NCBI GenBank assembly: GCA_021781835.1
Contig: JAJXWD010000003.1
Span: 62,001 to 126,000 of the forward strand
Origin: Pseudomonadota bacterium
GTDB lineage: Bacteria; Pseudomonadota; Alphaproteobacteria; Acetobacterales; Acetobacteraceae
Direction: 5' to 3'
DNA length: 64,000 nucleotides
The notes under the pieces were generated by a model. The model was not told where the DNA came from. It ran no database searches and worked only from the letters and a program-made list of their open reading frames with translations. This document shows positions 13,291 to 63,272 of this stretch, piece after piece (position 1 is the first letter of the stretch; the number at the start of each line of letters is the position of its first letter). The translations under genes were made by a program, and so were the position numbers.

Positions 13291-14567
13291 AGCTGCTGAC
13301 GACCCGGCAAGCCAATTTCGAGGCTGAGTTCGCGGCGCTCATGGCGCGTGCCCAACCGGCCCCGGCCCTTGCCGAGAGCGTCCGCCAGATCATCGAGCAG
13401 GTCCGCCAGCAAGGCGATGCCGCCTTGTTCAATTTCACCTATCAGTTCGACCATCTGGAGCTGACGCAGGATACGGTCCGCGTCACCAGCGACGAGCTGC
13501 GCCTGGGCGTCGCGCAAGTGCCCAAAACCCTGCGTGACGCGCTGGGCGTGGCGGCCCGCCGGATCGAGACCTTCCACCGCGCCCAGCTCCCGCGTGATTT
13601 CGAGTTCACCGACGATGCCGGCGCCACGCTCGGCATGCGCTGGACCCCGCTCGATGCCGTTGGCCTCTATGTGCCGGGCGGCAAGGCGTCCTACCCCTCC
13701 TCGGTGCTCATGAACGCCATTCCCGCCCGCGTGGCGGGGGTACGGCGTTTGGCCATGTGCGTGCCAAGCCCGGGCGGCACGCTCAACCCGCTCATTTTGG
13801 CCGCCGCCTCGGCGGCGGGCGTATCCGAGATTTACCGCGTCGGCGGGGCGCAGGCGGTGGCGGCCATGGCCTATGGCACGCACTCCATCCGCGCGGTTGA
13901 CCGCATCGTCGGCCCCGGCAACGCCTATGTGGCCGAGGCCAAGCGCCAGGTATTTGGGCGGGTGGGCATAGATTCCATCGCCGGCCCGTCCGAGGTGCTG
14001 ATCATCGCCGATGACGGCAGCAACCCCCACCACATCGCGCTCGACCTGCTGGCCCAGTGCGAACATGACGAAGACGCCCAGGCGATCCTGATCACCGACT
14101 CGGGCGCCATGGCGTCCGCGGTGGCGGGCGCGGTCAACCAGGCCCTGCAAACCCTGCCCCGGCGCGACATCGCGGCCGAGAGCTGGCACCGCCACGGCGC
14201 CATCATCTTGGTGCAGAGCTGGGAAGAGGCCGAGATTTTGGCCAACCGCATCGCGCCCGAGCATTTGCAGCTCATGCTGGCCGAGCCCGACCGTTTGTTT
14301 CGCAAAATCCGCCATGCCGGGGCCATTTTCCTGGGCCGCCACACGCCCGAGGCCATGGGCGATTATGTCGCCGGCCCCAACCATGTGCTGCCCACCTCTG
14401 GCACGGCGCGCTTTGCTTCGGGCTTGTCGGTCTATGATTTCATGAAGCGCACCACCTACCTCGCCACCCCGCCCCGCGCGCTCGCGGTTCTGGGCCCCGT
14501 GGCGGTGGCGCTGGCCGAGGCCGAGGGCCTGGGCGCCCACGCCGCATCCGTCAAGGCGCGCCTTTAA
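13287..14567 (+). CDS. hisD: Histidinol dehydrogenase
   Basis: A 426-residue Zn-dependent enzyme that oxidises L-histidinol to L-histidine in two NAD-dependent steps. Characteristic segments include VGLYVPGGKASYPSSVLMN, the GGAQAVAAMAYGT loop, IVGPGNAYVAEAKRQVFG, and the metal and catalytic region ...IAPEHLQLM and GRHTPEAMGDYVAGPNHVLPT with conserved His and Glu residues. It is translationally coupled to hisG and ends at a strong terminator. Confidence 0.97.
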   Translation: MKLLTTRQANFEAEFAALMARAQPAPALAESVRQIIEQVRQQGDAALFNFTYQFDHLELTQDTVRVTSDELRLGVAQVPKTLRDALGVAARRIETFHRAQLPRDFEFTDDAGATLGMRWTPLDAVGLYVPGGKASYPSSVLMNAIPARVAGVRRLAMCVPSPGGTLNPLILAAASAAGVSEIYRVGGAQAVAAMAYGTHSIRAVDRIVGPGNAYVAEAKRQVFGRVGIDSIAGPSEVLIIADDGSNPHHIALDLLAQCEHDEDAQAILITDSGAMASAVAGAVNQALQTLPRRDIAAESWHRHGAIILVQSWEEAEILANRIAPEHLQLMLAEPDRLFRKIRHAGAIFLGRHTPEAMGDYVAGPNHVLPTSGTARFASGLSVYDFMKRTTYLATPPRALAVLGPVAVALAEAEGLGAHAASVKARL

Positions 14568-14585
14568 ACACCTGAAAACATTATA

Positions 14586-14640
14586 AAAGTTTTTGGGGGT
14601 GTGGGGGCTTTTTCCAAAAAGCCCCCACGTCTTTTCTTGT
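14586..14640 (+). terminator. Rho-independent terminator after hisD (half of a dispersed element)
   Basis: A 12-bp stem GTGGGGGCTTTT/AAAAGCCCCCAC (14601-14628), followed by GTCTTTTCTTGTG. It is preceded by TAAAAGTTTTTGGGGG, the same left flank found at 35362. It is a half copy of the element family described at 23253 and 35362. Confidence 0.85.
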
Positions 14641-14829
14641 GTCTGTCCTTGCGTCCTGCCCCCGGTCTTTGGCTCCCCCCTCTCCCCGCCCGCCGCCGCC
14701 ACCCCGCCAAAACATACCGGCCAAGCCACGAAAACGGCGAGAAAATCTTGACCGCGAGACAATCCCGGCTCATGTGAGCGGCAAGTTTTTCCTCTGTTTC
14801 TCTTTATTCCTCTTATCCCGGAGTTTTGT

Positions 14830-49937: not shown

Positions 49938-49945
49938 GCCTTTAT

Positions 49946-49973
49946 GGGAAACTGGAGGGTAGCGGGAATCGAA
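49946..49973. repeat. Island left end, att repeat
   Basis: GGGAAACTGGA + GGGTAGCGGGAATCGAA. Identical to the right copy (61700-61729) except for two bases (GC) missing after CTGGA. It does not continue into a tRNA. Confidence 0.85.
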
Positions 49974-50242
49974 TTGTAATAGCTATCTAATTAAAAAACA
50001 TGTGAGTATATTTATCTAAAATCCATTGAAGCCCCCGTTAAGGCCCCCAAATATTAAGGTGGCGATGGGCGATATAAGGAACCAAACTACCTGCAATTTG
50101 AAGTTAACCCCTTGCCCCTTCCACGCCGCTGTGGTCTCAATCGCAAAAGTTACACCATCGCACATTCAACAACCTCAACAGGCAATCCCCGCGGATAGCA
50201 CCGACCTCGTTCAAAACCAGTGATCGTTACCAGAGGACATGC

Positions 50243-51250
50243 ATGATCGACGGCGCTTCCCAAAACGGATTGACCTTAGTAAAAACACGGACGCCGTGGG
50301 CCGCAAGAATTTTGGCGGCATTGCTGTCTTTTTGTTTGCCCGGTGTCGGCCAGATTTATGCACGCGAATATCGTCTTGGTGTCGCAATCGGTCTCATTGC
50401 TCTTTTCCTGAACTTGATCGCTGGGATAATTATTAACTCATCTAACCCAAGTACTTTTACCGTCTTGCCTGTCTTTGTTTCATTCTTGATGCTCATAGTT
50501 ATTCATTTTTTTGCGGCGGTCGATGCGTCCATAAAAGCAGCAACCAGAGATATCCGAGCAGCCCCTCCCTGGTACAGGTCAGCATGGGTATTGGGCATTT
50601 TATATGTCCTCTGTTTAGCATTGTTACATGGTGCCTTTTCCCCGCCACATTGGCGGACGTACCTCCTGCCGTCTGACTCAAATGCTCCAACGCTACTAGC
50701 TGGAGATTATTTTATCTCAGCCAACTCTAAGAATGGAATGACGTTCAAGCGCGGCGATATACTAATATTCCGCCCACCAGGCGCACCCAGTGAAGCTTTC
50801 GTTCAACGCCTAATCGGCCTACCGGGTGATACCATCCAGGTGACAGCCGGGCAGTTACTTATCAATGGCCAACCTGCGGCCGAAGCCGACGCTGGCACCT
50901 ACGTTGATGATAGTTCGGGTGAGGCCCTACAGGGCCAAGCATTTACCGAAACGCTCCCCAACGGCATCATTCATCGAATTCTACGCTTACCTGACACGGA
51001 TGACGATTTCGCCAACAATACGCCCCTCTACACTGTGCCCTCGGGCCATTATTTTATGATGGGCGATAACCGCGACAATTCCGAGGACTCACGCTTTTCG
51101 GATGGCCCTGTGGGATACGTGCCAATCAACGACATCATCGGTCAAGTCGACATAGTTGAGTTTTCTATCGACTTTAAGCATCCAGCATCAAAGTTTTGGT
51201 ATTGGCCAACCGAAATTCGCTGGAACCGGCTCTTTAAATCCGTTTCGTGA
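50243..51250 (+). CDS. S26 signal peptidase I-like membrane protein, catalytic Lys apparently replaced
   Basis: A 335-residue protein. The N-terminal 130 residues are four hydrophobic segments starting with LLSFCLPGVGQIYAREY (a TM2-like pattern). The C-terminal half is signal-peptidase-like: box B PSDSNAPTLLAGDYF keeps the Ser, box D reads FVQRLIGLPGD where YIKR-type sequences carry the general-base Lys, and the last box FMMGDNRDNSEDSRF is intact. Lys to Gln suggests an inactive enzyme or a different mechanism. AGAGGA precedes the ATG. The next gene overlaps by 4 nt. Encoded in AT-rich island DNA. Confidence 0.75.
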   Translation: MIDGASQNGLTLVKTRTPWAARILAALLSFCLPGVGQIYAREYRLGVAIGLIALFLNLIAGIIINSSNPSTFTVLPVFVSFLMLIVIHFFAAVDASIKAATRDIRAAPPWYRSAWVLGILYVLCLALLHGAFSPPHWRTYLLPSDSNAPTLLAGDYFISANSKNGMTFKRGDILIFRPPGAPSEAFVQRLIGLPGDTIQVTAGQLLINGQPAAEADAGTYVDDSSGEALQGQAFTETLPNGIIHRILRLPDTDDDFANNTPLYTVPSGHYFMMGDNRDNSEDSRFSDGPVGYVPINDIIGQVDIVEFSIDFKHPASKFWYWPTEIRWNRLFKSVS

Positions 51251-51756
51251 ACATGCCGAATGTGGAGTCAAATATGGCAAACGACGAACCAACAAATTCT
51301 GGCATTCCTAGCTCAAATTTGGTTCCTGGGACAAAGAAATGTCCATTCTGCAAGGAAGTTATCATGGAGGATGCGCTGAAGTGCAAGCACTGCGGCAGCA
51401 TTCTAGTACCTTTGAATCAGTTTGCTCCTGCCGCCGTCACACCAGTTCCAGCGGCCGGAAACACCGTTCAAATCGTTACAAATACAGTTGAGCAGAAGCC
51501 GTCTTTCTCGGAAGAAGTTAAAACCAAATATGGTCATGGATGGGCAGGGCTGATTGTTTCTGTAATTCTTTTGTTCACGGTGTTTGGCCAAGGCGAAACT
51601 ACTCCGGATTGGGCGAAAGCTGTTGCTGATCTAGGAGCAATAATTATTGGACCTTGGATGATATGGATATTGAGCCGTCCACACACAAATAAAGTTCTAC
51701 CGGTATTAGCTCTCCTCATAACGGCCTTTGTCGTTGTCGGAGCAAACGCAAGCTAA
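51247..51756 (+). CDS. Zinc-ribbon membrane protein, unknown function
   Basis: A 169-residue protein. A double-Cys zinc ribbon (CPFCKEVIMEDALKCKHCGS, about 32-51) is followed by a Pro/Ala linker and three hydrophobic segments (LIVSVILLFTVFG, IIGPWMIWILSR, LALLITAFVVVG). The start GTG 51247 overlaps the signal-peptidase-like stop (GTGA); ATGs at 51253 or 51274 are alternatives. It is co-transcribed with the preceding gene, which suggests a joint membrane function. No known family is recognised beyond the zinc ribbon. Confidence 0.7.
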   Translation: MNMPNVESNMANDEPTNSGIPSSNLVPGTKKCPFCKEVIMEDALKCKHCGSILVPLNQFAPAAVTPVPAAGNTVQIVTNTVEQKPSFSEEVKTKYGHGWAGLIVSVILLFTVFGQGETTPDWAKAVADLGAIIIGPWMIWILSRPHTNKVLPVLALLITAFVVVGANAS

Positions 51757-51930
51757 TATCACTGAAATGTCATGTTTGTATGTAAAAAGGTATGCCCTCG
51801 TGAGAACTCAATGGTCACGAACATATTGACGACTGTTCGTCATGCTACGCCCCTTTCTAACCTCAACATTACCGGAGCGACAACTTTAAAAGTTGAGTTT
51901 CATTAAACTGGGAAAACGGGCGTAAAGGTG

Positions 51931-52329
51931 ATGAAAATATCTCGCATTCGAGATGTGATTTTTCTTGTGATTCTGATAACAATCATTCCGTCCCATTATG
52001 CGGGAGCTGATCCAACGCGTGCGGTGGACACCGAGTCAGATCCGCTAGCTGTAGTTGTATGCAACAATCAGAGTTTACAGTCAGAGCTGGCGAAACGTAT
52101 CAATAGTACGGGCGGAGTGTTATTGGTGAGTCTATCTTTAGATGCCTTACATCCGATCTCATACCTTGATGCCGCGCAGGATTATGTAAATCTTGGATGT
52201 TTATACGACGTAGAAGTGGGAGCGAGTGTTCAAGATCAGTTAAAAGACATAAAATTTCAACAGATAGTCCATCTTCGCCTTTACCTAGACCATCTAGTCG
52301 TCGAAAACGTAACAATACCCAATAGTTGA
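51931..52329 (+). CDS. Small exported protein of unknown function
   Basis: A 132-residue protein with an N-terminal hydrophobic segment (DVIFLVILITIIPSHYAGA) that looks like a Sec signal with cleavage near AGA-D. Two Cys remain in the mature part (VVCNNQ, LGCLYD), enough for one disulfide. AAAGGTG lies directly before ATG 51931. No family recognised. AT-rich, like its neighbours, and separated from them by about 175 bp on each side with no gene. Confidence 0.55.
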   Translation: MKISRIRDVIFLVILITIIPSHYAGADPTRAVDTESDPLAVVVCNNQSLQSELAKRINSTGGVLLVSLSLDALHPISYLDAAQDYVNLGCLYDVEVGASVQDQLKDIKFQQIVHLRLYLDHLVVENVTIPNS

Positions 52330-52511
52330 GTTACTCCCTTTCAAGAGATTATGGCTTATTACGGAGATGCTTGTACACAAATTCCAAATGCATTCTCGGG
52401 TCAAAACTGACATGAATATTCGGTTAGAAATATTCTACTACGGCACGCAATTTAATCAGTGGACCCATGATGCTATTGTCGAGATAGAGATTTGTTTTAA
52501 GGGATAAAGAA

Positions 52512-53033
52512 ATGGACAGCCTTTTCAAAGACATTCTTTTGCCAATAATCGTCGCCTTGATTACCTCGTTCGTTACGATACGAATCAACGACAGGCAAAT
52601 TCAAATCGATAACATTACAAAAGAACGCGCCAAATGGCGTGATAAAATCCGCGCAATGTTGGTCGAGACCCATAAAGCCTGGGAAACAGCAGATATCCAA
52701 AAGATCAAAGAACTGAAGTCAACATTTGCAGTATATTTAAATCCGTTTGACACAGAAGATGAAGGAATTCTGACTGCACTCGAAAAGCTCATAAATGATC
52801 GGGAAGATCCGGCAATCCTAGAGTTCTATATAAGGATCTCGCTCTTACTCAAACATGATTGGGAGCGGGCAAAATTTGAATCGAAGCCTTGGGCTCCTAG
52901 GATAATTTGTGGCATTCTCACAATGAAATGCCAAATGCATAACATTCAAAAATGTAGGCTAAATGGATGGTTTTGCCCACCACAGCGTGAGACCTATAGC
53001 AATTTTAAAAATTGGATTCAAACCAAAAATTGA
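52512..53033 (+). CDS. Membrane-anchored protein of unknown function
   Basis: A 173-residue protein. One N-terminal hydrophobic helix (DILLPIIVALITSFVTIRI) is followed by a charged helical region (TKERAKWRDKIRAMLVETHKAW) resembling the cytoplasmic stretch of small phage- or defence-associated membrane proteins. The C-terminus has several Cys (CGILTMKCQMHNIQKCRLNGWFC written as separate residues C132, C139 and following). No family assigned. Last gene of the AT-rich left cargo. Confidence 0.55.
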   Translation: MDSLFKDILLPIIVALITSFVTIRINDRQIQIDNITKERAKWRDKIRAMLVETHKAWETADIQKIKELKSTFAVYLNPFDTEDEGILTALEKLINDREDPAILEFYIRISLLLKHDWERAKFESKPWAPRIICGILTMKCQMHNIQKCRLNGWFCPPQRETYSNFKNWIQTKN

Positions 53034-53034
53034 G

Positions 53035-53058
53035 GCCCGCCCTTTGTCAAGGCAGGGC
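53035..53058 (+). terminator. Hairpin after the left cargo genes
   Basis: GCCC-GC-CCTT-TGTC-AAGG-CA-GGGC stem-loop directly after the stop of the preceding gene. No T-run of note. Possible terminator between the convergent cargo and relaxase transcripts. Confidence 0.4.
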
Positions 53059-53166
53059 CCATTTCCTTAGCGGACATCGCCGTCCCCGGCTGTACCGTGA
53101 GAAGACCCTAGCATAGCAATCGAGCGTCGTCAGCTAAAATTTCCTTACTCAAATATCCCGGAGAGC

Positions 53167-53187
53167 GCGAGAGGCAGAGCCTCTCGC
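53167..53187 (-). terminator. Hairpin after the relaxase gene
   Basis: Perfect 9-bp inverted repeat GCGAGAGGC-AGA-GCCTCTCGC, 17 nt beyond the relaxase stop. A terminator for the mobilization operon is plausible although no T-run follows. Confidence 0.45.
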
Positions 53188-53203
53188 TTAACGTATCGCT
53201 CCG

Positions 53204-56017
53204 CTACAAGGCTATGCCTCTGAACGACAAAAATGAAAATTTTTTTCGATCAGTCGAGTCCCCGTGTGCCGCAACAATTTGACTGTTGTTCGCTACGATG
53301 GCACTGGCATTTGGTCTGAGCGCTGTCTGTTTCATCCCCATACGCTCCAGCAAGCCCCCCACCAACTTGCCCCGGTCATTGGTATAAATGGCGGTATTCT
53401 CCTTGGCGCGGGACAACGCGACATAAAAGCTCTTTTGATCCAGCAGGTTGGTGGCGGCGCTGTCGGCGTGGATGAAGGTCCGTTCGGCGGTGCGCCCCTG
53501 AGCGGCGAAGGCCGTTGCCACATAGCTATGGGCAATATGCTGGTTACTCGGGTCATCGAGCTTCAGGGTCTCAACCTTGCCCCTGGCCAGCCGGACCGTG
53601 GCGCTGCGCGTGCTAGGGTCAATGGCGGTAATCTCGGCTTGCTGGCCGTTGATCCGCCCCAGGGCGCGGTCATTGCGGGTGAACTGCATTTTATCTCCCG
53701 CCCGCAGCTCAATCGTCTCGGAGGTGAAGGCTTGGGACTGCGCAGCCCCCCATTGGCGAAGCCGCCAATCGATCATCCTGCCGGTCTGGTCAGCCAGCGA
53801 GATTGCCGCCTTGCCGGTGTCGATGCCGGTCACCCGGTAGGCCTGTGCCTTTGATACACCCTTATCGGCGTAATCCTTGGCGAAGCGGATCATGTCGCCG
53901 ATGGCATAGCTGTGCGGGTCTTTGGCTTCGGCGCGGGTCATATCTTTGGACACAAGCCTTGGCGCGGTAATCGCCGGGCCGTGAAGCTGGCCACGTTCGG
54001 CAAGCGCATGGCGAATCTCCTTGGTCAGCGCGTCGCGCCCCTCGCGGGACGGCTCAATCACCAGGGCCTTGCGCCTCTCCTTGGCGTCCAACTTGGCATA
54101 ATCCTGGGCGATTTGGGCAAAGCGGGCCTCGCGGGTGTCACATTCAACAATGCGCCCGCCGCCCGCGTCCAGCGCCGCCAGGGCCTTCTTGGCATTGCCC
54201 TCCAGGCTGGCCTCCACCGACGCCTTGGCGTGCTCGTTGGTCTGGCGCAGAATTTGGGTCAGGCGGGCGGTTTCCATGCCCGCACCCTGTAGCTGGGCAA
54301 AGGCAGCACCCGCTGCCACGGAACCAAGCTGCGCCGTATCGCCTACCAGCAGTACCCGCGCCCGGTGGGATTCGGCTAGGCCCAGCAGCTTGGCGGCATC
54401 TGCCGCCGAGATCAGCGAGGCTTCGTCAACAATCCAAAGCCGCTCCTTGAGTGTGGGGCGGCCCGGCGCCAACAAATGCCGGGCCAGTGTATCGGCGCGG
54501 CTATCCAGCGCCTCGCCCAAAACCTGTGCCGCCGATGCCGTGGGAGCGAGTGCTACCACCTGAATGCCCCGGGCCTCGGCCTCGCGTGCGATGGTTGCCA
54601 ATACGGTGGAAGTCTTGGCGGTGCCCGCAGCTCCCTGCAAACCAATGACCCGGTTGCGGCTGGTGAGGATTTGCGCCGCCGCCACTTTTTGCTCATCGGT
54701 CCAGCTATGCCCCCGCGTGGCGCTGCGCCGCTCGGCCACGGCAACCGCCCTGCTGGCGGCAATGGGGGAGAGGATCGGTTCCACCTGCTGGCGGCCTTGT
54801 TCCTCCAGCCGCAGCAGTGCCGTCTCGTTGGCGATATTGGCGGCAGTGGTGAAGCCCTCGAAAACCACGCCCCGCCGGTCAAGGCATTCGCGCGCGTCCA
54901 GCGCGCCGGTCGTCTCGGCACGGGCAATGGCGGCGGCGATGTCATCATGCCCAACGCGGCCCATGCCGAACCGCCCCGCTGCCTCGTGCAGGGCGGTGGT
55001 GGAGAACACGGATTGCCGCTCTCCCAGCATCGCCGCACCCTGCGCCACCGCACGATCAGCCGCCAGCTCACGCGCAAATTCATGGTCGGCGCTGAGGGTG
55101 GTGGATTTTGCTTGCGCCTCGGCCTGGGCAATCAACCCGTGCCGCGCCTGTTCATCCCATCCGGCTGTATCGGCGGCCTCACGCCATGCGCCGATTAGTT
55201 CGGCATGGGGCACGGCTTCCTTGGCCAGCCGCGTGTCCAGCGCCGCGATCTGCTTCTCGGCGGCGCTGGCCTCCGCCCGGCTTTTACCCCGCTCGGCCAG
55301 CCGCGCCTCGATGGCAGCACTGCGCTGGCTGAACGCCTCCAGCGTGGTGTTGCCGATACCGGCAATCTCAAAGATCGAATCCTTGCCGCGCTCAATCGCG
55401 TAGCCCAGGTTTTGCACCCCGGCGGCCAGCTCCTGCCGATAAATGGCGCCCATCTGCTTTTGCATCTGGTAGAAGGCACGCGGCTCCAGGCTGCGCCATT
55501 GCCCGCCCTCGTCCCGGGTCATGTTGAGGATGATGTTATGGCTATGAAGCTGCGGGTCGAGCGCCCGGCTGGTGCCATGCCGGAAAGAGGCAATGACCAA
55601 ATTGCCGGTCGCCTCCCGCCGGTTGCTGCCATCTTCCCGAATGCGCGTGGCGGTAAAATGCTGCTCCGCCAGGCCCAGCGCGGTTTTCACCGCCTGTTCA
55701 TGCGCCGCGATGAGGCGACGGTCGCCCGCCACCTCGGCCATGATCGACACAGATTTGGGCGCGCTGAAGGTTACATCCCAACCGGGCCGGTGCTCCCACT
55801 CACCCTCCCGCATGGTGCCAAGGCTTTGACCGGCGACATGGCCGTCCAGTAGGCGGGCAAATTGCTCGCGGTCAACGGCCCCGGTCAGGTTCAGCGCTTG
55901 TGCGCCTTGGCCCAGCCATTCCGAGGGGGCAAGCCCCCCTTCGGCGTAATAATCATCAGCCTCGTAATAGCTGGCAGCCTGCCCGGCACTGGTCAGGGCG
56001 GAGATTGTCGCCACCAT
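53204..56017 (-). CDS. MOBF-family conjugative relaxase (TrwC/TraA-type)
   Basis: A 937-residue protein with an N-terminal relaxase and C-terminal helicase. N-terminal tyrosines are in ASYYEADDYYAEGG, and the three-His metal motif is FRHGTSRALDPQLHSHN (about 145-165), with TFSAPKSVSIMAEV before it. The RecD-like helicase has Walker A LQGAAGTAKTS, IVDEASLISAADAAKL and LVGDTAQLGSVAAG, and the SF1 motif VALSRAKENT near the end. It nicks oriT and pilots the strand. The start overlaps the coupling-protein stop (TAATG). No TraI C-terminal extension like F. Confidence 0.95.
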   Translation of the reverse strand: MVATISALTSAGQAASYYEADDYYAEGGLAPSEWLGQGAQALNLTGAVDREQFARLLDGHVAGQSLGTMREGEWEHRPGWDVTFSAPKSVSIMAEVAGDRRLIAAHEQAVKTALGLAEQHFTATRIREDGSNRREATGNLVIASFRHGTSRALDPQLHSHNIILNMTRDEGGQWRSLEPRAFYQMQKQMGAIYRQELAAGVQNLGYAIERGKDSIFEIAGIGNTTLEAFSQRSAAIEARLAERGKSRAEASAAEKQIAALDTRLAKEAVPHAELIGAWREAADTAGWDEQARHGLIAQAEAQAKSTTLSADHEFARELAADRAVAQGAAMLGERQSVFSTTALHEAAGRFGMGRVGHDDIAAAIARAETTGALDARECLDRRGVVFEGFTTAANIANETALLRLEEQGRQQVEPILSPIAASRAVAVAERRSATRGHSWTDEQKVAAAQILTSRNRVIGLQGAAGTAKTSTVLATIAREAEARGIQVVALAPTASAAQVLGEALDSRADTLARHLLAPGRPTLKERLWIVDEASLISAADAAKLLGLAESHRARVLLVGDTAQLGSVAAGAAFAQLQGAGMETARLTQILRQTNEHAKASVEASLEGNAKKALAALDAGGGRIVECDTREARFAQIAQDYAKLDAKERRKALVIEPSREGRDALTKEIRHALAERGQLHGPAITAPRLVSKDMTRAEAKDPHSYAIGDMIRFAKDYADKGVSKAQAYRVTGIDTGKAAISLADQTGRMIDWRLRQWGAAQSQAFTSETIELRAGDKMQFTRNDRALGRINGQQAEITAIDPSTRSATVRLARGKVETLKLDDPSNQHIAHSYVATAFAAQGRTAERTFIHADSAATNLLDQKSFYVALSRAKENTAIYTNDRGKLVGGLLERMGMKQTALRPNASAIVANNSQIVAAHGDSTDRKKFSFLSFRGIAL

Positions 56018-57861
56018 TACACCGGCCCCGGGCCAAGAATTGTACCCTGGATGGGGGCGTCGGGCGTTTCTGCCGCCTTGGCCTCCTGCAATCCGCCCCA
56101 GAGCGTTTCCGCAATATCGGCGGGGATGAAGTCCGGCTGCCGGGCGGGACCGCGTGCGATGATATGGTCATCGGTCAGCTTGATCCGCGCCACCGGCAAG
56201 CCATCGGGCAACAGCAGATAGCCGGTATATTTCGGCAAGCGCAGATCGCTCTCCAGCACGGCGGCGCGCAATTCGCGCATCGTGCTCAAGGTCCGCTGCG
56301 GTTTACCCGTATTCGGATCGAACGTCTCGCTGAAAGTGGACGTTTCCACTTCGACGCTGCCAATGGTCGCGGCCGCCCATTCGCGGCTAGCATGGTCGCT
56401 CATTTGCAGGAACAGCTTGGTGTTGCAGCACCCCAGAAGGGTTTCGGCGCCATCGGGGCCGTAATGTCCGCGCATCTGGCCAATCGCCTGGCACGACAAA
56501 ATTATGCACGCCCCGAATTTCCTGCCTTGCGGCGCGAGGCGTTCAAGGTTTTGGACGCGGGGAAGATCGGGCAGCTCATCCAGCAGGAACCATACCCTGC
56601 GGGTTGTGCTGGCGGACAGGCCCAGCATGGCGCTGGCCGCGCATTCCAGCCACAGCGCCATCAAAGGCTTCATGGCTTCGAAATAATCTTCCTTCCTGGG
56701 CACAAATATCCAAGGCTTGCGGGCTTTGTGCTGGTCGATGCCCTTGAAGAACTGGGAAATCGAAAAGGCTTCTTCACCATCGCGAGGTGCCTTGCGCAGG
56801 AACATGAGCATGTTGACCGCCTTGACCAGCATGAACAGCACGCTGGCGGTGGCGCGGTCGGCATCTTTCTCGAAGGTACGGGCCGATGACGTGTTGGCCA
56901 GCCACCGCTCTAACTCCTTGCGCGGCATGGATTGCAGCGCATTCAGTAATGCTTGCAGCGTGCCGCGTCCCTCCCGCCAAAGATTGCGCATGACATTCGC
57001 CACCAAATTGCGGCTGGTTTCCAGCCAGATGTCCTTATCCTCGTCGCCGGTCTCATTGATGAGGTAGCGGGCAATCCGGTCGGCATCGGCCGGATGAATG
57101 ATCTCGGCGAAGGGACTCCAAAATACTCCCCGCTGATCGAACGGGTTCAAAATGATGTCACCGCGTGCCGGATCGTAATAATTCGCCACGAACTCGCCGC
57201 TGGTGTCGTACACCAAAGCAGCCTCGCCTCTCGCCTCGATCACGTCCAGTTGCTGCCGGAGCGCCGTCGTCTTGCCGCCGCCGGTTGTTCCAATCAAGGC
57301 TGTGTGCCGGGTTTCCAATCCACTCGGCAAGGTAACGCCACCGAATTGCAGGCGCGGCTCATCGCTTTCCTCGGCGGTTATGCCGGCCAAGGTTGCCTCG
57401 CTGACCACGCGCGTACCCCGCATGACCCGATCCGCCAGCCGCGCTTCTTGCTTGCGCCGCCGCCGGTCAGCGGTCAGCCAGAGGCCAGCCATTCCCCCGG
57501 CAAAGCCCAATGCGCCACCCAGCCCGAGGGCGCGGGCAAAGCTTGCCGCATCCTGTCGCAATGGCTGGAACGCCGCCCATTCCTTGACCCCCGTGCGGCC
57601 TGCCTGACCGTTCCAGGCAATCGTCATCAAGGGGTCGGACGGCATATCCGACAAGAGAAAACTCGTGAAGGCGGCAACGCCATATTCGGTGTCGGCCTGG
57701 ATTTGCGACGGGCTGGTGACAACCGCCCCCAAGGCCAGCGCGCCAAGCAGCGCGCCACCGGCTAACACGCGGGCATTGAAGCGGAATTGAGCTTGACCAT
57801 CGGCGCGGTCACGCGCCCGCAGGGCGGCGATATGCGCCCGGCTGCTGCTGTCTTTGGACAT
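56017..57861 (-). CDS. TraD-like type IV coupling protein
   Basis: A 614-residue VirD4/TraD-family ATPase that links the relaxosome to a secretion channel. Two N-terminal membrane helices (AGGALLGALALGAVV and ALGGALGFAGGMAGLWL) are followed by Walker A GTTGGGKTTALRQQL, and DTSGEFVANYYDPARGDIILNPF is a T4CP signature. Walker B is RRVWFLLDELPDLP. The ATG overlaps the stop of the accessory gene (TGATG). Only this coupling protein, and no channel genes, are on the island. Confidence 0.93.
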   Translation of the reverse strand: MSKDSSSRAHIAALRARDRADGQAQFRFNARVLAGGALLGALALGAVVTSPSQIQADTEYGVAAFTSFLLSDMPSDPLMTIAWNGQAGRTGVKEWAAFQPLRQDAASFARALGLGGALGFAGGMAGLWLTADRRRRKQEARLADRVMRGTRVVSEATLAGITAEESDEPRLQFGGVTLPSGLETRHTALIGTTGGGKTTALRQQLDVIEARGEAALVYDTSGEFVANYYDPARGDIILNPFDQRGVFWSPFAEIIHPADADRIARYLINETGDEDKDIWLETSRNLVANVMRNLWREGRGTLQALLNALQSMPRKELERWLANTSSARTFEKDADRATASVLFMLVKAVNMLMFLRKAPRDGEEAFSISQFFKGIDQHKARKPWIFVPRKEDYFEAMKPLMALWLECAASAMLGLSASTTRRVWFLLDELPDLPRVQNLERLAPQGRKFGACIILSCQAIGQMRGHYGPDGAETLLGCCNTKLFLQMSDHASREWAAATIGSVEVETSTFSETFDPNTGKPQRTLSTMRELRAAVLESDLRLPKYTGYLLLPDGLPVARIKLTDDHIIARGPARQPDFIPADIAETLWGGLQEAKAAETPDAPIQGTILGPGPV

Positions 57862-58223
57862 CACGAATCTCCGGCAAGGTTGAGTTGGCGTTGAAACGCT
57901 GCCCCTATCTCAGTAGTCAGAATGGACTCGTCGGAGCGGGGACCGGCGGCAACGCGGGTGTAGGTGTAGGCGGCGCACGCGGTAAACAGCGTCCGCTCCG
58001 TCAAGCGCTCGACATGGGCCAGGCGCGCGGCCAATGCCCCGATCTCTTGGGCGATCTCGGCGGTAAGTTGCGGCCCCGCCTGTTCGCCGGAAAGGGAGGC
58101 CAGCCCGGCCCGCACGCATTGTTGCAATAGGGCATAGGGGGTCATCTGGCGGTTTTGGGCAGCGTGACGCAATGCTTTATCCAGCACCAAGGGGAGGCGC
58201 ACGGAGTGCTGAACAAACTTCAC
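57861..58223 (-). CDS. Putative relaxosome accessory protein
   Basis: A 120-residue protein. SVRLPLVLDKALRHAAQNRQ fits a ribbon-helix-helix-type N-terminus, followed by helices; the C-terminal half has LTAEIAQEIGALAARLAHVERL, possibly coiled-coil. GTG 58223 is chosen as start: GGAGG lies 7 nt upstream and longer starts give an uncharacteristic N-terminus. It is the first gene of the mobilization operon and lies directly beside the oriT candidate, as TraY/MobC-like proteins do. Function inferred from place and fold. Confidence 0.6.
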   Translation of the reverse strand: MKFVQHSVRLPLVLDKALRHAAQNRQMTPYALLQQCVRAGLASLSGEQAGPQLTAEIAQEIGALAARLAHVERLTERTLFTACAAYTYTRVAAGPRSDESILTTEIGAAFQRQLNLAGDS

Positions 58224-58266
58224 AGCCTGTCCTCCCCCCGCATCCGGCGCGTATCCTCGGCCAGCC

Positions 58267-58365
58267 CAGGCATGGCGCGAGGTATCGAGCACGCGCCATG
58301 CCTGCACCCGGATCGCACCCTCGATCGGCTCAGGCCAATAGCTGCTCTGCCGAGCGTGGGGTGTG
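58267..58365 (+). other. Predicted oriT
   Basis: A perfect 13-bp inverted repeat CAGGCATGGCGCG / CGCGCCATGCCTG (58267-58279 and 58292-58304, 12-nt spacer). About 50 nt to the right lies GCGTGGGGTGTG (58354-58365), the same 12 nt as the core of the F-plasmid nic site recognised by the MOBF relaxase TraI (from memory). The site lies just upstream of the mobilization operon. By analogy the nick would fall after 58364, and the integrase side would enter first. Confidence 0.65.
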
Positions 58366-58427
58366 TGACTTCCCTGTCTTGATGCGCAGCATCGAGACCA
58401 TCAGCAAAGCGCCAAAATTGTTGGGGC

Positions 58428-58886
58428 TTACGCATCTTTTGCCCCCCGATGTTGATGTTGGGGGAGAGTTGTCCAACGGCCGCGCATGATCTCGTCTGCC
58501 CAGTCTCGGATGGCCATTTCGATAGCCGTCTTGATGCGGTTATCGAGGTCATGGGCCTCGTCAGGCGAGAGGTGTGCGGTCAAGCCTGGCGTCTCGACCA
58601 AGCCACCCGCTGGGCGGTAGCCTCTTTCATCGGAGGTTGAAGGGCCGTCGATGCGGCAGAGGGAGGACGTTCCAAGGTAGACATTGAGGGGTGGCACGTC
58701 CCAGCGATGCCAGAAGGCGACGGCAAACCGATAGGTCTCGCCAGCCCTGTCATCGCGTATTAGCTTCTCGATGATCGGCATGACGAAACGGGTAATGCGC
58801 GGCGTTGTCCGCACGGTGAAACTGGCAACCCTCTCGGGGAGGAGCCGGGCGTACAAACGGGCGACAATATGCTGGAAAATGGACAT
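58428..58886 (-). CDS. Unknown protein of the mobilization region
   Basis: A 152-residue, mostly helical protein; it begins SIFQHIVARLYARLLPE and ends with a His-rich tail. Central segment AGETYRFAVAFWHRWDVPP is aromatic-rich. ATG 58886 has AAGGA 7 nt upstream. It lies on the other side of the oriT candidate from the accessory gene, in the same direction, and may be a second relaxosome or regulation gene, but no family is recognised. Confidence 0.55.
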   Translation of the reverse strand: MSIFQHIVARLYARLLPERVASFTVRTTPRITRFVMPIIEKLIRDDRAGETYRFAVAFWHRWDVPPLNVYLGTSSLCRIDGPSTSDERGYRPAGGLVETPGLTAHLSPDEAHDLDNRIKTAIEMAIRDWADEIMRGRWTTLPQHQHRGAKDA

Positions 58887-59004
58887 AGAGGTATCCTTTC
58901 CGCGCACGGGGGCGCGAATGCGTGGAGGTCAGTTTTTGTTCATGGGAGGAGGCGAAGGCGCAGCAGTCCACTCATTCAAAAGGCTGGGACCGCGGGCCTT
59001 CGGT

Positions 59005-59178
59005 TCAGGGGGATTGGTTGGCCTGTGCCAGGCGCTTAATAGAGACGGTTGTCAGCAGAGTTCGCCTGCCAATCTTGATCGCCTCCAGCCTGCCAGATTT
59101 AAGCAAGACGTAAATGGAGCTTCGTCCAACCCCGAGAGCTTTGGCGGCGGCGTTAACGGAGATAGCAATCGGTTCCAT
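59005..59178 (-). CDS. Excisionase-like HTH_17 protein (AlpA/Xis type)
   Basis: A 57-residue protein: ISVNAAAKALGVGRSSIYVL then LLKSGRLEAIKIGRRTLL, the winged-helix pattern of excisionase-family DNA-binding proteins. AGGAGG lies 11 nt before ATG 59178. In islands with P4-type integrases such a gene directs excision and sometimes represses the integrase. Confidence 0.75.
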   Translation of the reverse strand: MEPIAISVNAAAKALGVGRSSIYVLLKSGRLEAIKIGRRTLLTTVSIKRLAQANQSP

Positions 59179-59355
59179 GTTTGAGAGAGCCTCCTGATGT
59201 TCGTTGGAAGGCCTCTCAAATTGCACACGGATGGTGGCGCGTCGTCCGATTTTAAAACAACCAATCCAGTCCAGACACTATGCAAATTCCGGTAGAGACG
59301 CCCGGAGATAATGCTTTGATTTACAACAAATTCCGGCGAAGGCGCCGTTGAAAAT

Positions 59356-60345
59356 TCAACCGGGAAGCGACTTGTTTTTTTCTATAGCCGTCAAAATTTC
59401 GCCAACAAACTTATACATCTGCGACTTTTCAGGCGTGAGATCGTCAAAATCCATGTCTTGCTCATCAGCGTCGGCATCGCTCAAGCTGGTTATCAGTTTT
59501 TTGAGTCTGCCCGCGTCACGAGGTTCGCCTCGAATAATCTGCTTGAGGGCCGGATGCTCAATTATTAGGAGCAGCAGCCGCTTGTAATCGTGTTGGTCTG
59601 ATTTTTGACGCTTGTCGGGGCTAGCATTTGTCCTTTGGATTAAAGCCTTTATGTTCACCCTCATGAAAGTCTCGTGCGAAAATGGCCATGGCCTTACGGG
59701 CTGAAAAACAAGTTCTCTATATGTTCTCTCTGGCGACAAGAGTAAGAAACGTAAGCCTCCATAGAAGTGCTTCTGGTCAAGATACCTGTCTGATCCATTT
59801 TTTTTGAAGTAAGCCTTTGGCGTTTTCCCGCTTTGTAAGTGCTTAAAAAGGCCATCTAATTTGAGTGCGACATCTTTATCACTTTCACCATAAAAGGCTT
59901 CCTGAGATTTTTTTGCGGAAAGACTTCCATATTGGAAAGCCTGCCATGACCAAAAGCTGAAGAGCACCCCAAAAAACGAAAGCACGGCAACGACATAGAG
60001 AGGGTCGCCATACTTTGCGCTTAGTCGGTCAATAATTATTGCAAAAATAATCAAAACAACAAAAAGTCCGCAAAGCCAAGCAGCTCTAGCCATCAATAAA
60101 CTATATTTATTTGAATATTGATTATAAATTCTTCCGGTAAAGGCATCCAACCGCTTTAATCCATCATCTTCGTCTTCTGAAATGAAGTTGGCTGCAATCT
60201 GCCTTAAAGGAAACTCTTTTTCTTGAGCTTGCTCTAGTACCAACCGCGCCTCTTTTTGAGATTTTTCTTCTGTTCGTATATTCGGTGTTTTGCTTGCTTT
60301 TGGCGCCTGGGCCACTTCTTTCTGCGTTACCGACCTTGGTGCCAT
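59356..60345 (-). CDS. Membrane protein of unknown function, coupled to the integrase
   Basis: A 329-residue, AT-rich gene. A charged N-terminal 75 residues (RSVTQKEVAQAPKASKTP and a Gln/Glu-rich helix) is followed by two hydrophobic segments (AAWLCGLFVVLIIFAIIID and VVAVLSFFGVLFSFWSWQAF) and a large cytoplasmic C-domain ending with an acidic DADADEQDMDFDD stretch. ATG 60345 overlaps the integrase stop (TGATG) and has GGAGG 10 nt upstream. No family recognised. The coding style is unlike the integrase it follows, suggesting later acquisition as cargo. Confidence 0.6.
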   Translation of the reverse strand: MAPRSVTQKEVAQAPKASKTPNIRTEEKSQKEARLVLEQAQEKEFPLRQIAANFISEDEDDGLKRLDAFTGRIYNQYSNKYSLLMARAAWLCGLFVVLIIFAIIIDRLSAKYGDPLYVVAVLSFFGVLFSFWSWQAFQYGSLSAKKSQEAFYGESDKDVALKLDGLFKHLQSGKTPKAYFKKNGSDRYLDQKHFYGGLRFLLLSPERTYRELVFQPVRPWPFSHETFMRVNIKALIQRTNASPDKRQKSDQHDYKRLLLLIIEHPALKQIIRGEPRDAGRLKKLITSLSDADADEQDMDFDDLTPEKSQMYKFVGEILTAIEKNKSLPG

Positions 60346-61541
60346 CAGACATTTCCTCCCGTTCGCAACTCGTCCAAATAATTGCTCCACCACTGCGCCA
60401 TCTCTACCCGCTCAGCCCAATAGGCGGATTGGTTGTAAATGCGCCGAATGATGCCGGGCACCATATGGGCCAGCGCGCGCTCGATTGCGTCTGGGTTCCA
60501 CTTGCCCGATTCGTTGAGCAACGATGAGGCCGAAGTACGGAAGCCGTGCGCCGTCATTTGATCCTTGGAGTAGCCCATTCGCCGCAGTGCAGCATTAACG
60601 GTGTTGTCGCTGATTGGCCGGGCTTTGGTGCGCACAGAGGGAAAAACATAGCGCCCCGCCCCGGACAAGCCCCTCATCTCACGGAGAATCACCAGGGCTT
60701 GCTGTGATAGTGGAACTGCATGGGGCTGGCGCATCTTCATCTTGATCTCGGGTATCGTCCAGACGGCCTTGTCGAAGTCGACCTCGGCCCATTCCATCTG
60801 GCGTATCTCGCCAGGGCGCTGAAAGACATGCGGCGTGAGCTTCAAGGCATACATAACGGAAGGGTCGCCCTGATAATCGTCTATCGCCCGCAAGAGCGCC
60901 CCAAACTGGGCTGTATCGGTAATCGCGGCGAAATGTTTGACGGTCGGGGAAATCAGCGCCCCTTGCAGGAGCTGAGCCGGGTCGCGCTCCGCCCGTGCGG
61001 TGGCCGCCGCATAGCGGAATACCTGCCCGGCAAAGGCACGGAGCTGCTTGGCCGTTTCCAGCCTCCCCCTGCGTTCGTGTTTTTTAAGCTCGTGAAGCAG
61101 CTCCTGGGGCGTGATGTCGGCCACCGGCCTCTTTCCGAAGTCTGCCCCCAGTAGTTTCAATAGCCAGCGTTGCTTCTCCAGTGTCGCGGTCGCCCGCCCT
61201 TCCCGGCCCTTTTTTTCAATCAGCTCCTCCGCCACGCCGTTGAAGGTGTTCCCGGCGCGAATGCTTGCCTCAATCCTGGCCTGGCGTTTGGCGGCGTTGG
61301 GGTCGATTGAGTGGGCCAGTTGCTTGCGTGCAGCGTCACGGGCTGCCCGTGCCTCAGCCAGGGTTATTTCGGGATAAGCTCCCAGAGCGAGTTTACGCTC
61401 GGCTCCATCTATGCGGTATTTTATCCGCCAAAGCTTGCTCCCCGTTGGATTGACGAGAAGGTACAACCCCTGGGCGTCGGCCACCTTATAGGGTTTATCC
61501 TTTGGCTTGGCATTGCGAATCGCTGTATCAGTCAGCGCCAT
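60345..61541 (-). CDS. P4-type tyrosine integrase (DUF4102 N-terminus)
   Basis: A 398-residue site-specific recombinase. N-terminal DUF4102: LTDTAIRNAKPKDKPYKVAD and GLYLLVNPTGSKLWRIKYR. The catalytic domain has QRPGEIRQMEW (Arg I), TAHGFRTSASSLLNES (His-x2-Arg), ALAHM and RRIYNQSAYWAER (Tyr). It drives integration into the tRNA-Gly 3' end located about 165 nt upstream of its start. The frame is intact. Confidence 0.96.
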   Translation of the reverse strand: MALTDTAIRNAKPKDKPYKVADAQGLYLLVNPTGSKLWRIKYRIDGAERKLALGAYPEITLAEARAARDAARKQLAHSIDPNAAKRQARIEASIRAGNTFNGVAEELIEKKGREGRATATLEKQRWLLKLLGADFGKRPVADITPQELLHELKKHERRGRLETAKQLRAFAGQVFRYAAATARAERDPAQLLQGALISPTVKHFAAITDTAQFGALLRAIDDYQGDPSVMYALKLTPHVFQRPGEIRQMEWAEVDFDKAVWTIPEIKMKMRQPHAVPLSQQALVILREMRGLSGAGRYVFPSVRTKARPISDNTVNAALRRMGYSKDQMTAHGFRTSASSLLNESGKWNPDAIERALAHMVPGIIRRIYNQSAYWAERVEMAQWWSNYLDELRTGGNV

Positions 61542-61699
61542 ATGGGGGCCTCGGATTGGAGGGGGCTTTTTGAGGCCCCCAAATCAGGCCCCCATCTTCT
61601 GCGGTTGCAGGCAGACAAAGGCAGTCACTGACAATCAGTAACCACTCAAAAATACAGGAATTTCATGGGCTTTTCAATCATCGGCGAGCATCGTCGAAC

Positions 61700-61729
61700 G
61701 GGAAACTGGAGCGGGTAGCGGGAATCGAA
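61700..61729. repeat. Island right end, att repeat inside tRNA-Gly
   Basis: GGGAAACTGGA-GC-GGGTAGCGGGAATCGAA: the 3' 23 nt of tRNA-Gly with CCA, plus 7 nt beyond it. Same as the left copy but for the two extra bases. Confidence 0.85.
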
Positions 61730-61780
61730 CCCGCGCGTCGAGCTTGGGAAGCTTGCAGGCTACCATTACATCATACCCGC
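61707..61780 (-). tRNA. tRNA-Gly (CCC)
   Basis: On the minus strand: acceptor GCGGGTA/TACCCGC, D-arm with AATGGTAG, anticodon arm CAAGC-TTCCCAA-GCTCG (one A.C mismatch) with anticodon CCC, T-arm GCGGG-TTCGATT-CCCGC, and encoded CCA. It is the integration site of the island, reconstituted on its integrase side. Confidence 0.92.
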
Positions 61781-61844
61781 GCCGTGGGCGCCTTCTTAGT
61801 CTGATGTTCTTGACCGCGCAAGCGGGGGGGCGTAGGCGAAATGC

Positions 61845-61939
61845 ACCTCGTGATTTGTCTGGCCGGATTGCGGCGAGGCCGGGGCGTGAAAACCAGGGGG
61901 TTTTGCGCGGCCGGGAGTAAAAAAAACGCGCTAAAGAGG
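61845..61939 (+). promoter_or_regulatory. SAM-II riboswitch (expanded form) upstream of metZ
   Basis: CCTCG-TGATTTG-TCTGGCCGGA-TTGC-GG-CGAGG (61846-61878) reproduces the SAM-II 5' part: P1 CCTCG/CGAGG, the conserved [UG]AUUUG, and UUGC before the P1 return. The 3' part, GCTAAAGAGG (61930-61939) after an A-run GTAAAAAAAACGC, matches the GUUAAA...GCUAAA segment. Between them is an insertion of about 35 nt able to form its own stem. It ends about 60 nt before the metZ start. SAM-II elements repress methionine genes when SAM is high. Confidence 0.75.
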
Positions 61940-62000
61940 CCAAGCCCCGGCGCGCCCGTGGCTTGTCTCCGGTGGCCGGTTGATTGTTCTTGGGGGCCGC

Positions 62001-63185
62001 ATGACTGACACACCAAAAACCCGACTTGCCACAGACCTCGTGCATGGCGGGCGCATCCGCACCAATCTCTACGAGAATTCCGAGGCGTTGTTCCTGACCT
62101 CGGGCTTTGTCTATGACGATGCCGAGCAGGCGGAAGCCGTGTTCGCCAACCAGATCCAGCATTACCAATATTCGCGCTTCTCCAACCCGACGGTCGCCAT
62201 GCTGGAGGCCAAGCTCGCCAAAATTGAGGGCGCGGATGTGTGCCGCGCCACCGCCACGGGCATGGCGGCGGTTTCGGCGGCGGTGCTGTGCGGCGTGAAG
62301 GCCGGGCAGCGCGTCGTCGCCTCGCGCGCGCTGTTCGGCTCGTGCCACTGGATCATCTCGACCTTGCTGCCCCAATACGGCATCGAGACCATGTTCGTGG
62401 ATGGCGCGGACCTGGACCAATGGCGCGCCGCGCTCAGCCAGCCGACCGCGCTGGTGCTGCTCGAGAGCCCCTCCAACCCGATGCTCGATATCATCGACCT
62501 GCGCGCCGTCTCGGCGCTGGCCCACGAGGCCGGGGCCATCGTGGTGGTGGATAACGTGTTCGCCACGCCGCTGCTGCAAAAACCGCTCGAGCTGGGCGCG
62601 GATGTGGTGGTGTATTCGGCCACCAAGCACATGGATGGCCAGGGCCGCGTGCTCGGCGGCGCGGTGCTGGGGGCCAAGGACTGGATGGAGCAGGTGTTTC
62701 AGCCCTTTTTCCGCAATACCGGCCCGACCATGTCCCCCTTCAATGCCTGGGTGATCCTGAAAGGGCTGGAGACCATGCATCTGCGCGTGAAGGCGCAAAG
62801 CGACTCGGCCGAGACGGTGGCGCGGTTTCTCGAGGCCTCGCCCAAGATCGCGCGCGCGCTCTACCCCACCCTGGCCTCGCACCCGCAGCGGGCGCTGGCC
62901 ATGAGCCAGATGAGCGGCGGCGGCACGATGGTGACGTTCGAGGTCGAGGGCGGCAAGGACGGCGCCTTCAGGCTGATGAACGCGCTGCGCATCGTCACCA
63001 TTTCCAACAATCTGGGCGATGCGCGCTCGCTCGCCACCCATCCGGCCACCACCACCCATATGCGCATCGGCCCCGAGGAGCGGGCGCGGATGGGCATCAC
63101 CGATGGCACCATCCGCCTCTCGGTGGGGCTTGAGGATGTGCAAGACCTGATCGACGACCTGACCCAGGCGCTGGCCCAGGTTTAA
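62001..63185 (+). CDS. metZ: O-succinylhomoserine sulfhydrylase
   Basis: A 394-residue PLP enzyme of the Cys/Met metabolism family that makes homocysteine from O-succinylhomoserine and sulfide. It has LATDLVHGGRIRTNLYENSEAL and QYSRFSNPTVAMLEAKLA, the PLP-Asp in VVVDNVFATPLLQ, and the PLP-Lys in VVYSATKHMDGQGRVLGG. The SAM-II riboswitch upstream supports a methionine role and distinguishes it from cystathionine gamma-synthase. Start ATG 62001. Confidence 0.93.
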   Translation: MTDTPKTRLATDLVHGGRIRTNLYENSEALFLTSGFVYDDAEQAEAVFANQIQHYQYSRFSNPTVAMLEAKLAKIEGADVCRATATGMAAVSAAVLCGVKAGQRVVASRALFGSCHWIISTLLPQYGIETMFVDGADLDQWRAALSQPTALVLLESPSNPMLDIIDLRAVSALAHEAGAIVVVDNVFATPLLQKPLELGADVVVYSATKHMDGQGRVLGGAVLGAKDWMEQVFQPFFRNTGPTMSPFNAWVILKGLETMHLRVKAQSDSAETVARFLEASPKIARALYPTLASHPQRALAMSQMSGGGTMVTFEVEGGKDGAFRLMNALRIVTISNNLGDARSLATHPATTTHMRIGPEERARMGITDGTIRLSVGLEDVQDLIDDLTQALAQV

Positions 63186-63272
63186 GGCAAACCGCGCGCC
63201 CTGGCACCCGCCGGGGCGCGCGGCATGGCAAAGGCGGTTGCGCGCGCCCGGCGGCGGTGAGACAAACGCGGC

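Follow-up and report, generated by a model that had tools for sequence, protein, structure and literature searches.

The segment at positions 58239–58398 of the window (the whole stretch of DNA analysed, 64,000 nucleotides) is very probably, as judged from its sequence, the origin of transfer (oriT) of an integrative mobilisable element (IME) of the MOBF type. The features predicted for a MOBF oriT were found there together: a hairpin abutting nic, a MOBF core, a purine (G) after the predicted cut, and a position upstream of an accessory gene. An oriT with an F-like nic core had been proposed in the initial annotation, and conservation among relatives and identity with F both argue for it. The features of the island and of the putative oriT are listed below.

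49946–49973: left att repeat, 28 bases (the right copy has two more)
49974–61729: integrated mobilisable island of about 11.76 kb, as bounded by an empty site in the same-genus genome G140; the end copy of tRNA-Gly at the right is included
53204–56017, – strand: MOBF relaxase-helicase (Pfam TrwC, NCBIfam MobF)
56017–57864, – strand: TraD/TrwB-type coupling protein (Pfam TrwB_AAD_bind, E 2.8e-123)
57861–58223, – strand: accessory relaxosome protein, proposed ribbon-helix-helix; start at GTG 58223 by alignment of relatives (the ORF can run to 58307)
58239–58256, + strand: proposed accessory half-sites 1 and 2, CGCATCC at 58239 and CGTATCC at 58250, from equal offsets and concerted change across loci
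58267–58304: 13-bp inverted repeat, real but not conserved
58303–58320, + strand: proposed accessory half-sites 3 and 4, TGCACCC at 58303 and CGCACCC at 58314
58343–58356, + strand: proposed nic-proximal hairpin (T)GCTC-TGCC-GAGC(G), helix 1
58354–58365, + strand: putative nic core GCGTGGGGTGT^G, with the cut predicted between 58364 and 58365 from F identity and conservation
58376–58398, + strand: proposed 3′ hairpin GTCTTGATGC-GCA-GCATCGAGAC with one T.G pair, helix 2
58428–58886, – strand: p159, first gene on the leading side (the ORF can start at 58907)
59005–59178, – strand: small HTH protein (ORF), AlpA/Xis excisionase-like by eye
59356–60393, – strand: 345-aa protein
60345–61541, – strand: tyrosine integrase adjoining tRNA-Gly
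61700–61729: right att repeat, the 3′ end of tRNA-Gly(CCC)

Island borders and gene content

The borders of the island (about 49974–61729) were derived from the unoccupied site in G140: with window 48500–63200 as the query, query positions 1–1474 and 13201–14701 were matched, both flanks being contiguous in G140 with a 30-base overlap. The tRNA-Gly(CCC) gene (61707–61780) marks the right end. With an integrase, att repeats at a tRNA gene, an empty site elsewhere, a relaxase and an oriT, and with no channel of its own by searches with PF03135 and PF11130, the 11.8 kb island has the features of an IME. The same searches gave no VirB4 (PF03135) and no TraC (PF11130) match in the host genome (2,904,139 bases, completeness 99.29%); as far as these two profiles go, the element is therefore mobilisable and not self-transferring, and its transfer would need a helper type IV secretion channel.

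The relaxase, TraD, accessory and integrase genes all lie on the – strand. Cargo at 50243–51756 comprises a signal-peptidase-I-like gene and a zinc-ribbon protein. In many relatives the leading-side neighbour of the oriT is likewise p159; by tblastn none was found in L008, L019, L024, L025 or L072, and a Pfam match was obtained for one of 11 members (DUF3258, weak). Genome G224, of the same genus as that of the window, carries a related island, whose relaxase has the same coordinates as in the Acidocella aromatica record L008. A second relaxase module (L020), 82% identical and with its own oriT GCGTGCGGTGTG, is present near a tRNA-Ser gene on contig 2 of the window's own genome. A tRNA gene, namely tRNA-Gly(CCC), tRNA-Ser(GGA) or tRNA-Ser(GCT), is found near the integrase end in L007, L008, L012, L015, L019, L020, L051 and L054, and the integrases of the relatives compared are either 90–95% or about 30% identical to that of the window; from these differences the transfer module appears to have been combined with different integrases.

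Relaxase and coupling protein

The MOBF relaxase that the initial annotation had placed on a chromosomal island was borne out by profile matches to the relaxase and TraD genes (53204–57864). The relaxase carries a TrwC/TraI relaxase domain (TrwC, E 1.7e-93) and an SF1 helicase domain (AAA_30, E 1.7e-44), and scores 301.7 bits with NCBIfam MobF (cut-off 100). Both YY pairs and the qlHsH stretch align by eye with F TraI and TrwC. The tyrosine motif, likewise read by eye, is YY-X4-YY, shorter than the YY-X(5-6)-YY quoted for MOBF in a passage of PMC9868005.

Putative nic core and its conservation

The 12-mer GCGTGGGGTGTG has a single occurrence in the window, at 58354–58365 on the + strand, and allowing one mismatch adds no other. 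Shuffled windows gave a mean of 0.62 matches with up to one mismatch, so that the 12-mer alone is weak evidence. The initial annotation had equated it with the F nic core, and the F record NC_002483 does hold the identical 12-mer in its oriT, preceded by gcaaaaacttgttttt. Its proposal had also depended on the 12-mer being rare in the genome, where two copies were counted; the 12.3 kb around the second copy (L021) have no tblastn match to any of six island proteins.

It is conservation that raises the site above chance. A relaxase scan of genome contigs yielded 15 loci, 12 of them with enough upstream DNA (L009, L014 and L017 lack it). GCGTGNGGTGTG is present in all 12, at an equal distance from the accessory gene, and nine of the cores are exact. 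The other three depart from it at position 6 alone, L007 with T and L008 and L018 with A. In L020 this position is C. An alignment of 23 rows was assembled from the contig relatives and from further loci obtained by family, class and plasmid searches. Twelve rows have GCGTGGGGTGTG, ten differ at position 6 only (A in seven, C in two, T in one) and L053 has three differences. The distance from nic to the aligned accessory start is equal in 21 of 22 rows, L054 being 2 bases off; L091, the 23rd row, lacks the gene.

Position 6 thus takes all four bases among the relatives of the window. When the cores are aligned it corresponds to nucleotide 20 of the R388 TrwC site, which, according to passages of PMC4176350, has no direct protein contact and is processed with any base, while G17, T18, T21 and T23 do not tolerate a change without loss. 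The freely varying base is therefore the one left free in the R388 libraries.

The 22-base oriT pattern of the relatives was scanned, with at most one mismatch, over 397 family genomes. Eight places in eight genomes were found, seven at relaxase modules and one (G295) not; the reversed control gave none. The G295 site (L091:12057-12230; contig 1, near 80112) is a lone oriT copy with the exact F core, a perfect 10-bp 3′ hairpin and degenerate half-sites. The G295 genome gave no TrwC-family match, and none of the six island proteins was found within the surrounding 20 kb. Comparison of the region with 12 same-genus genomes, made to see it as an insertion, gave patchy matches and no clear boundaries. 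The copy would be a remnant or a satellite mobilised in trans. No plasmid copy of the oriT DNA was detected by blastn with the window's 206 bases or the 261 bases of L012, and no viral contig carries the 22-mer. Two further loci appear damaged: L053 (genome G192), where a relaxase gene cut short by the contig end is preceded by the degenerate nic GAGTACGGTGTG, is possibly a decaying element, and in L018 an intact oriT lies upstream of a relaxase gene apparently without residues of about 187–558.

That the oriT of the window is genuine and now inert, left in a decaying island without a partner transfer system, is improbable. The missing VirB4 and TraC matches in the host genome would fit such an end state, and the lone G295 site, in a genome without a MOBF relaxase match, indicates that such sites can be left behind. 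However, the relaxase, TraD, accessory and integrase genes are open frames, the oriT elements in the window are intact, and mobilisable elements normally have no channel of their own. An oriT belonging to a mobilisable element is the reading adopted below.

Hairpins

The arms of the 13-bp inverted repeat, CAGGCATGGCGCG (58267–58279) and CGCGCCATGCCTG (58292–58304), pair perfectly across a 12-nt loop. Since inverted repeats of at least 13 bp with a loop of 3–30 occur at three places in the window, the repeat is unusual and not unique. As a perfect repeat it is exactly what the initial annotation described; as the oriT hairpin of the relaxase it was rejected, for pairing is kept in the window copy only: 13 of 13 pairs there against 2 to 10 standard pairs in the 22 other rows, with traces in L010 (10), L006 (9) and L015, L019 and L054 (8 each).

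By comparison of the rows, the relaxase hairpin is the 4-bp GCTCtgccGAGC directly abutting nic. Its four pairs (helix 1) include the GC of the nic core; helix 2 has ten pairs (58376–58385/58389–58398). Over the 23 rows, 94.7% of the cells of the two helices are paired, against 81.5% after shuffling and 24–48% with slid partners, figures that favour the structure somewhat since it was read from the same 23 sequences. Nine of the 14 pairs change on both sides, eight of them among the ten of helix 2. The proximal 4-bp hairpin taken alone is no better than shuffles, so its support is the comparison across rows. In the window, a strict Watson–Crick count gives 5 bp for the 3′ hairpin, likewise no better than shuffles, because of the T.G pair. 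Inverted repeats 3′ of nic that beat shuffles were found in F, R100, L026, L104 (7 bp, +14), L109 (7 bp, +17) and L091 (10 bp); none was found in R388 (within 60 bases), L027, L061, L055, L060, L106, L107, L108 or L110.

Twenty of the 23 rows have a GNA loop on helix 2, every base occurring at N; two have AAA and one GTGA, and the closing pair is C–G in 22 rows. GNA and GNNA loops on G–C pairs are described in PMC4686876 as giving unusually stable DNA mini-hairpins. By computed energy the + strand folds better in 16 of the 23 rows (mostly by little), five are tied, and L024 and L025 slightly favour the – strand; in the window the values are –6.7 (+ strand) against –4.4 kcal/mol (– strand). These energies being indecisive, the strand argument rests on the helix 2 loop.

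Accessory protein and half-sites

The window's accessory protein has no Pfam and no NCBIfam match. Its helix pattern (12–24/29–44) fits a ribbon-helix-helix fold, which remains a guess: the AlphaFold model is of low confidence (pLDDT 67.9), its Arc matches in Foldseek came at E over 6 only, and the profile match to NikA is weak (E 0.58).

For each of the 23 rows, heptamers were read at four offsets (58239, 58250, 58303 and 58314). Eighteen rows have two or more that fit the scanned YGCA-type pattern; L020, L024, L025, L072 and L091 carry others, such as CGCTGCC four times in L025, an example of concerted change. For the likeness test, 12 representative rows were chosen from the 23 to reduce near-duplicates. 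Identity was 4.99/7 within a locus against 4.16/7 between loci, a difference reached in 0 of 20000 shuffles. One of six shifted controls (shift 20) was also in excess, at 3.32 against 3.06 (0.8% of shuffles), whereas none of the remaining five attained the 5% level. The pattern looks like what would be expected of the binding sites of a changing DNA-binding protein.

Relaxase residues and nic bases

Harley and Schildbach reportedly found in 2003 that residues Q193 and R201 of F TraI, which are exchanged in R100, set specificity. The two are treated as the F/R100 specificity residues, and were used in R1, in passages of PMC3245843. By alignment, Q186 and R194 of the window relaxase correspond to Q193 and R201 of F TraI; R100 has R and Q, and R388 T and N, in these columns. 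Q and R together were found in 19 of 19 rows (of the 23) with a readable core frame and both residues, the rows left out being L018 (gap in the relaxase), L019 (contig end), L053 (degenerate core) and L091 (no relaxase).

Nic bases 5 and 7 appear, in the aligned sequences, to track residues 193 and 201. Among 22 nic-bearing relaxases, the top score of all columns for base 5 (0.95) is shared by residue 193 and columns 71, 190 and 195, and that for base 7 (0.91) by residue 201 and columns 80 and 207, residue 201 coming first after a small variety penalty. Q goes with G5 in 12 of 13 rows (exception L055) and non-Q with A5 in 9/9; R goes with G7 in 15 of 16 (exception L061, with A) and Q, N, T or D with T7 in 4/4, while K has one of each. 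The rows are related, so that these counts are not independent. L053, absent from the 22-row table, breaks the rule with a Q/R relaxase at its degenerate nic.

The rule was set before the extra plasmids were read: R or K at 201 predicts G7, Q or N predicts T7; Q at 193 predicts G5 and other residues A5. Six of seven new loci have a site (L104 and L106–L110). Base 5 was predicted correctly in all six. For base 7 the rule held in the three loci with R and failed in L110 (K with T); L107 (T at 201) and L109 (D) fall outside the rule as stated, and both have T.

A regulatory reading of the conserved block, as the control region of the accessory–traD–relaxase operon with the 12-mer a coincidence and the true oriT elsewhere in the island, is barely credible. 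Half-sites beside the accessory gene would also serve autoregulation, like the TraM sites in F as described in passages of PMC7690428. Yet the invariant bases include those contacted by TrwC and the free base is the uncontacted one (PMC4176350), and promoter elements would explain neither this contact pattern nor the tracking of nic bases by relaxase residues.

With the block taken as an oriT, a further proposal has two parts that would have to hold together: that the GNA-loop mini-hairpin, 12–34 bases behind nic (15–37 in most relatives), is a working single-stranded signal of this oriT clade on the transferred strand, and that MOBF relaxases follow a readable two-position code (193 for base 5, 201 for base 7). 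It is tentative, the balance leaning somewhat against it. If it is true, the hairpin may serve re-binding or rejoining by the relaxase, protection of the incoming end or the start of the second strand, and the code would predict which relaxase mobilises which MOBF element, including relaxase-less copies like that of G295.

Common MOBF frame and kinship with F

The frame GCGT[AG]N[GTA]GT[GC]T[AG] was scanned in 24 more distant MOBF loci. Exactly one match each was obtained in 12, including R388, mostly just upstream of an accessory-like gene. The assignments for L027 and L061 are less certain, their matches being about 5.4 kb upstream of the relaxase and away from the operon; in L110 the frame sits between the relaxase and stb genes, on the downstream side of the former. 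No match was obtained in L056, L057, L058, L059, L073, L074, L075, L076, L077, L078, L079 or L105; L074 and L078 have Q/R relaxases, and L059 and L076 have little upstream DNA. In the comparison with known MOBF oriTs called for by the initial annotation, F showed the same 12-mer and R388 the wider frame. In a passage of PMC4176350, G at position 21 is given for pKM101 and F only among those compared there.

In an unrooted tree of 31 relaxase domains the window falls into a set of ten rows (support 98/98) without F, comprising Acetobacteraceae, sphingomonad and one further alphaproteobacterial row; base 5 is A in the deepest pair of this set, L026 and L104. A long branch separates F and R100 from the rest, and R100, the sister of F, reads A and T at bases 5 and 7. 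The window relaxase falls outside the F (MOBF12) subgroup, both by this grouping and by its TraI_TIGR score of 451.8 (cut-off 929.85).

The frame in 12 of 24 distant loci, A5 within the window clade and A and T in R100 together mean that the match to F singles out no F kinship; the shared 12-mer would be one state of a common MOBF frame, in which G at bases 5 and 7 may be either inherited or of double origin. Highly unlikely, then, is the view that the 13-bp repeat is the oriT hairpin and the 12-mer a mark of special kinship or retained identity with F. It has on its side a perfect repeat placed between the two half-site pairs, with traces in L010 (10/13) and L006 (9), and a 12-mer and relaxase residues that are those of F; but the repeat is not preserved in most of the other rows, position 6 takes every base, and neither the window clade, with A at position 5 in its deepest pair, nor R100 fits a special tie. 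Of the F-like nic recognition claimed for an alphaproteobacterial IME, the identical 12-mer and the Q/R residues stand; a special tie to F is not supported by the tree or the common frame.

Proposed transfer mechanism and direction

On the reading preferred here, the element would first be excised and would then borrow a type IV secretion channel. The accessory protein would bind the two heptamer pairs (11 bp apart; pairs 64 bp apart) beside its own gene and help to open the DNA at nic. The MOBF relaxase would read the short nic-abutting hairpin and the single-stranded GTGGGGTGT, cut the + strand between T58364 and G58365 and stay joined to G58365, as extrapolated from F and R388.

In F, R388 and the window alike, the accessory gene is located 5′ of nic on the cut strand, and TraI of F is described in PMC7690428 as remaining on the 5′ end at nic; from these two points the integrase side would enter first and the tra genes last. 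The direction given in the initial annotation is therefore supported by homology. The + strand would leave 5′ first towards higher coordinates, taking the 3′ hairpin (at its stated distance from the bound end, and probably folded as single-stranded DNA in the transferred strand, to judge from its loop), p159, the xis-like gene, the integrase and the joined att, then the cargo at 50.2–53.0 kb and finally the relaxase, TraD and accessory genes.

In titles and abstracts of the literature on alphaproteobacterial MOBF oriTs, Acetobacter-type hosts, the 11-mer itself and MOBF mobilisable elements, subscription papers being mostly outside this scope, the site is not described; the 11-mer string occurs in at least four papers, two of which deal with conjugation, one on R1 and one on a relaxase structure. 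The oriT of a whole island and plasmid group (Acetobacteraceae/Acidocellaceae and sphingomonads) would become readable from sequence, together with its free base, covarying hairpins and accessory sites. To our knowledge, few MOBF nic sites have been mapped outside well-studied plasmids. From the site follow a transfer direction, the exact oligonucleotides needed in a nicking assay and a relaxase-specificity rule open to testing by residue swaps of the kind made between F and R100.

Comparison with known systems

The oriT/TraI system of F (NC_002483) has in common with the window the 12-mer, a 5′ nic-abutting hairpin, a 3′ inverted repeat, an accessory gene (traM) on the 5′ side, Q193/R201 and the helicase domain. 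It differs in residing on a plasmid and not in an integrated island, and in its hairpin sequence; the 3′ inverted repeat of F (and R100) has 8 bp at +8 with a GAGA loop, whereas that of the window lies at +12 with a 3-base loop. The accessory protein of the window, without a Pfam or NCBIfam match, has none to TraM or TraY of F, the relaxase is outside the F group in the tree, and the island has TraD and the relaxase only, with no channel.

R388 (oriT/TrwABC; NC_028464) shares the order accessory gene–coupling protein–relaxase with the oriT just upstream, the frame GCGT.. and the proximal arm GTGCG, which 19 of the 23 rows also have. It differs in its core, GCGTATTGTCTA, in T and N at the 193/201 columns and in that no 3′ hairpin within 60 bases exceeds shuffles. 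The sphingomonad MOBF plasmids pMC4 and pBSY18_2 (L024 and L025) have the same module, nic distance, GCGTGAGGTGTG and 3′ hairpin, with half-sites of their own sequence; unlike the island, they are plasmids on which these lie beside a trb transfer system. The MOBF IMEs of Mesorhizobium, according to passages of PMC8627217, are likewise chromosomal mobilisable elements, several of them at tRNA genes, but are mostly of the Ti-type traACD organisation, with traA and traC divergent around oriT.
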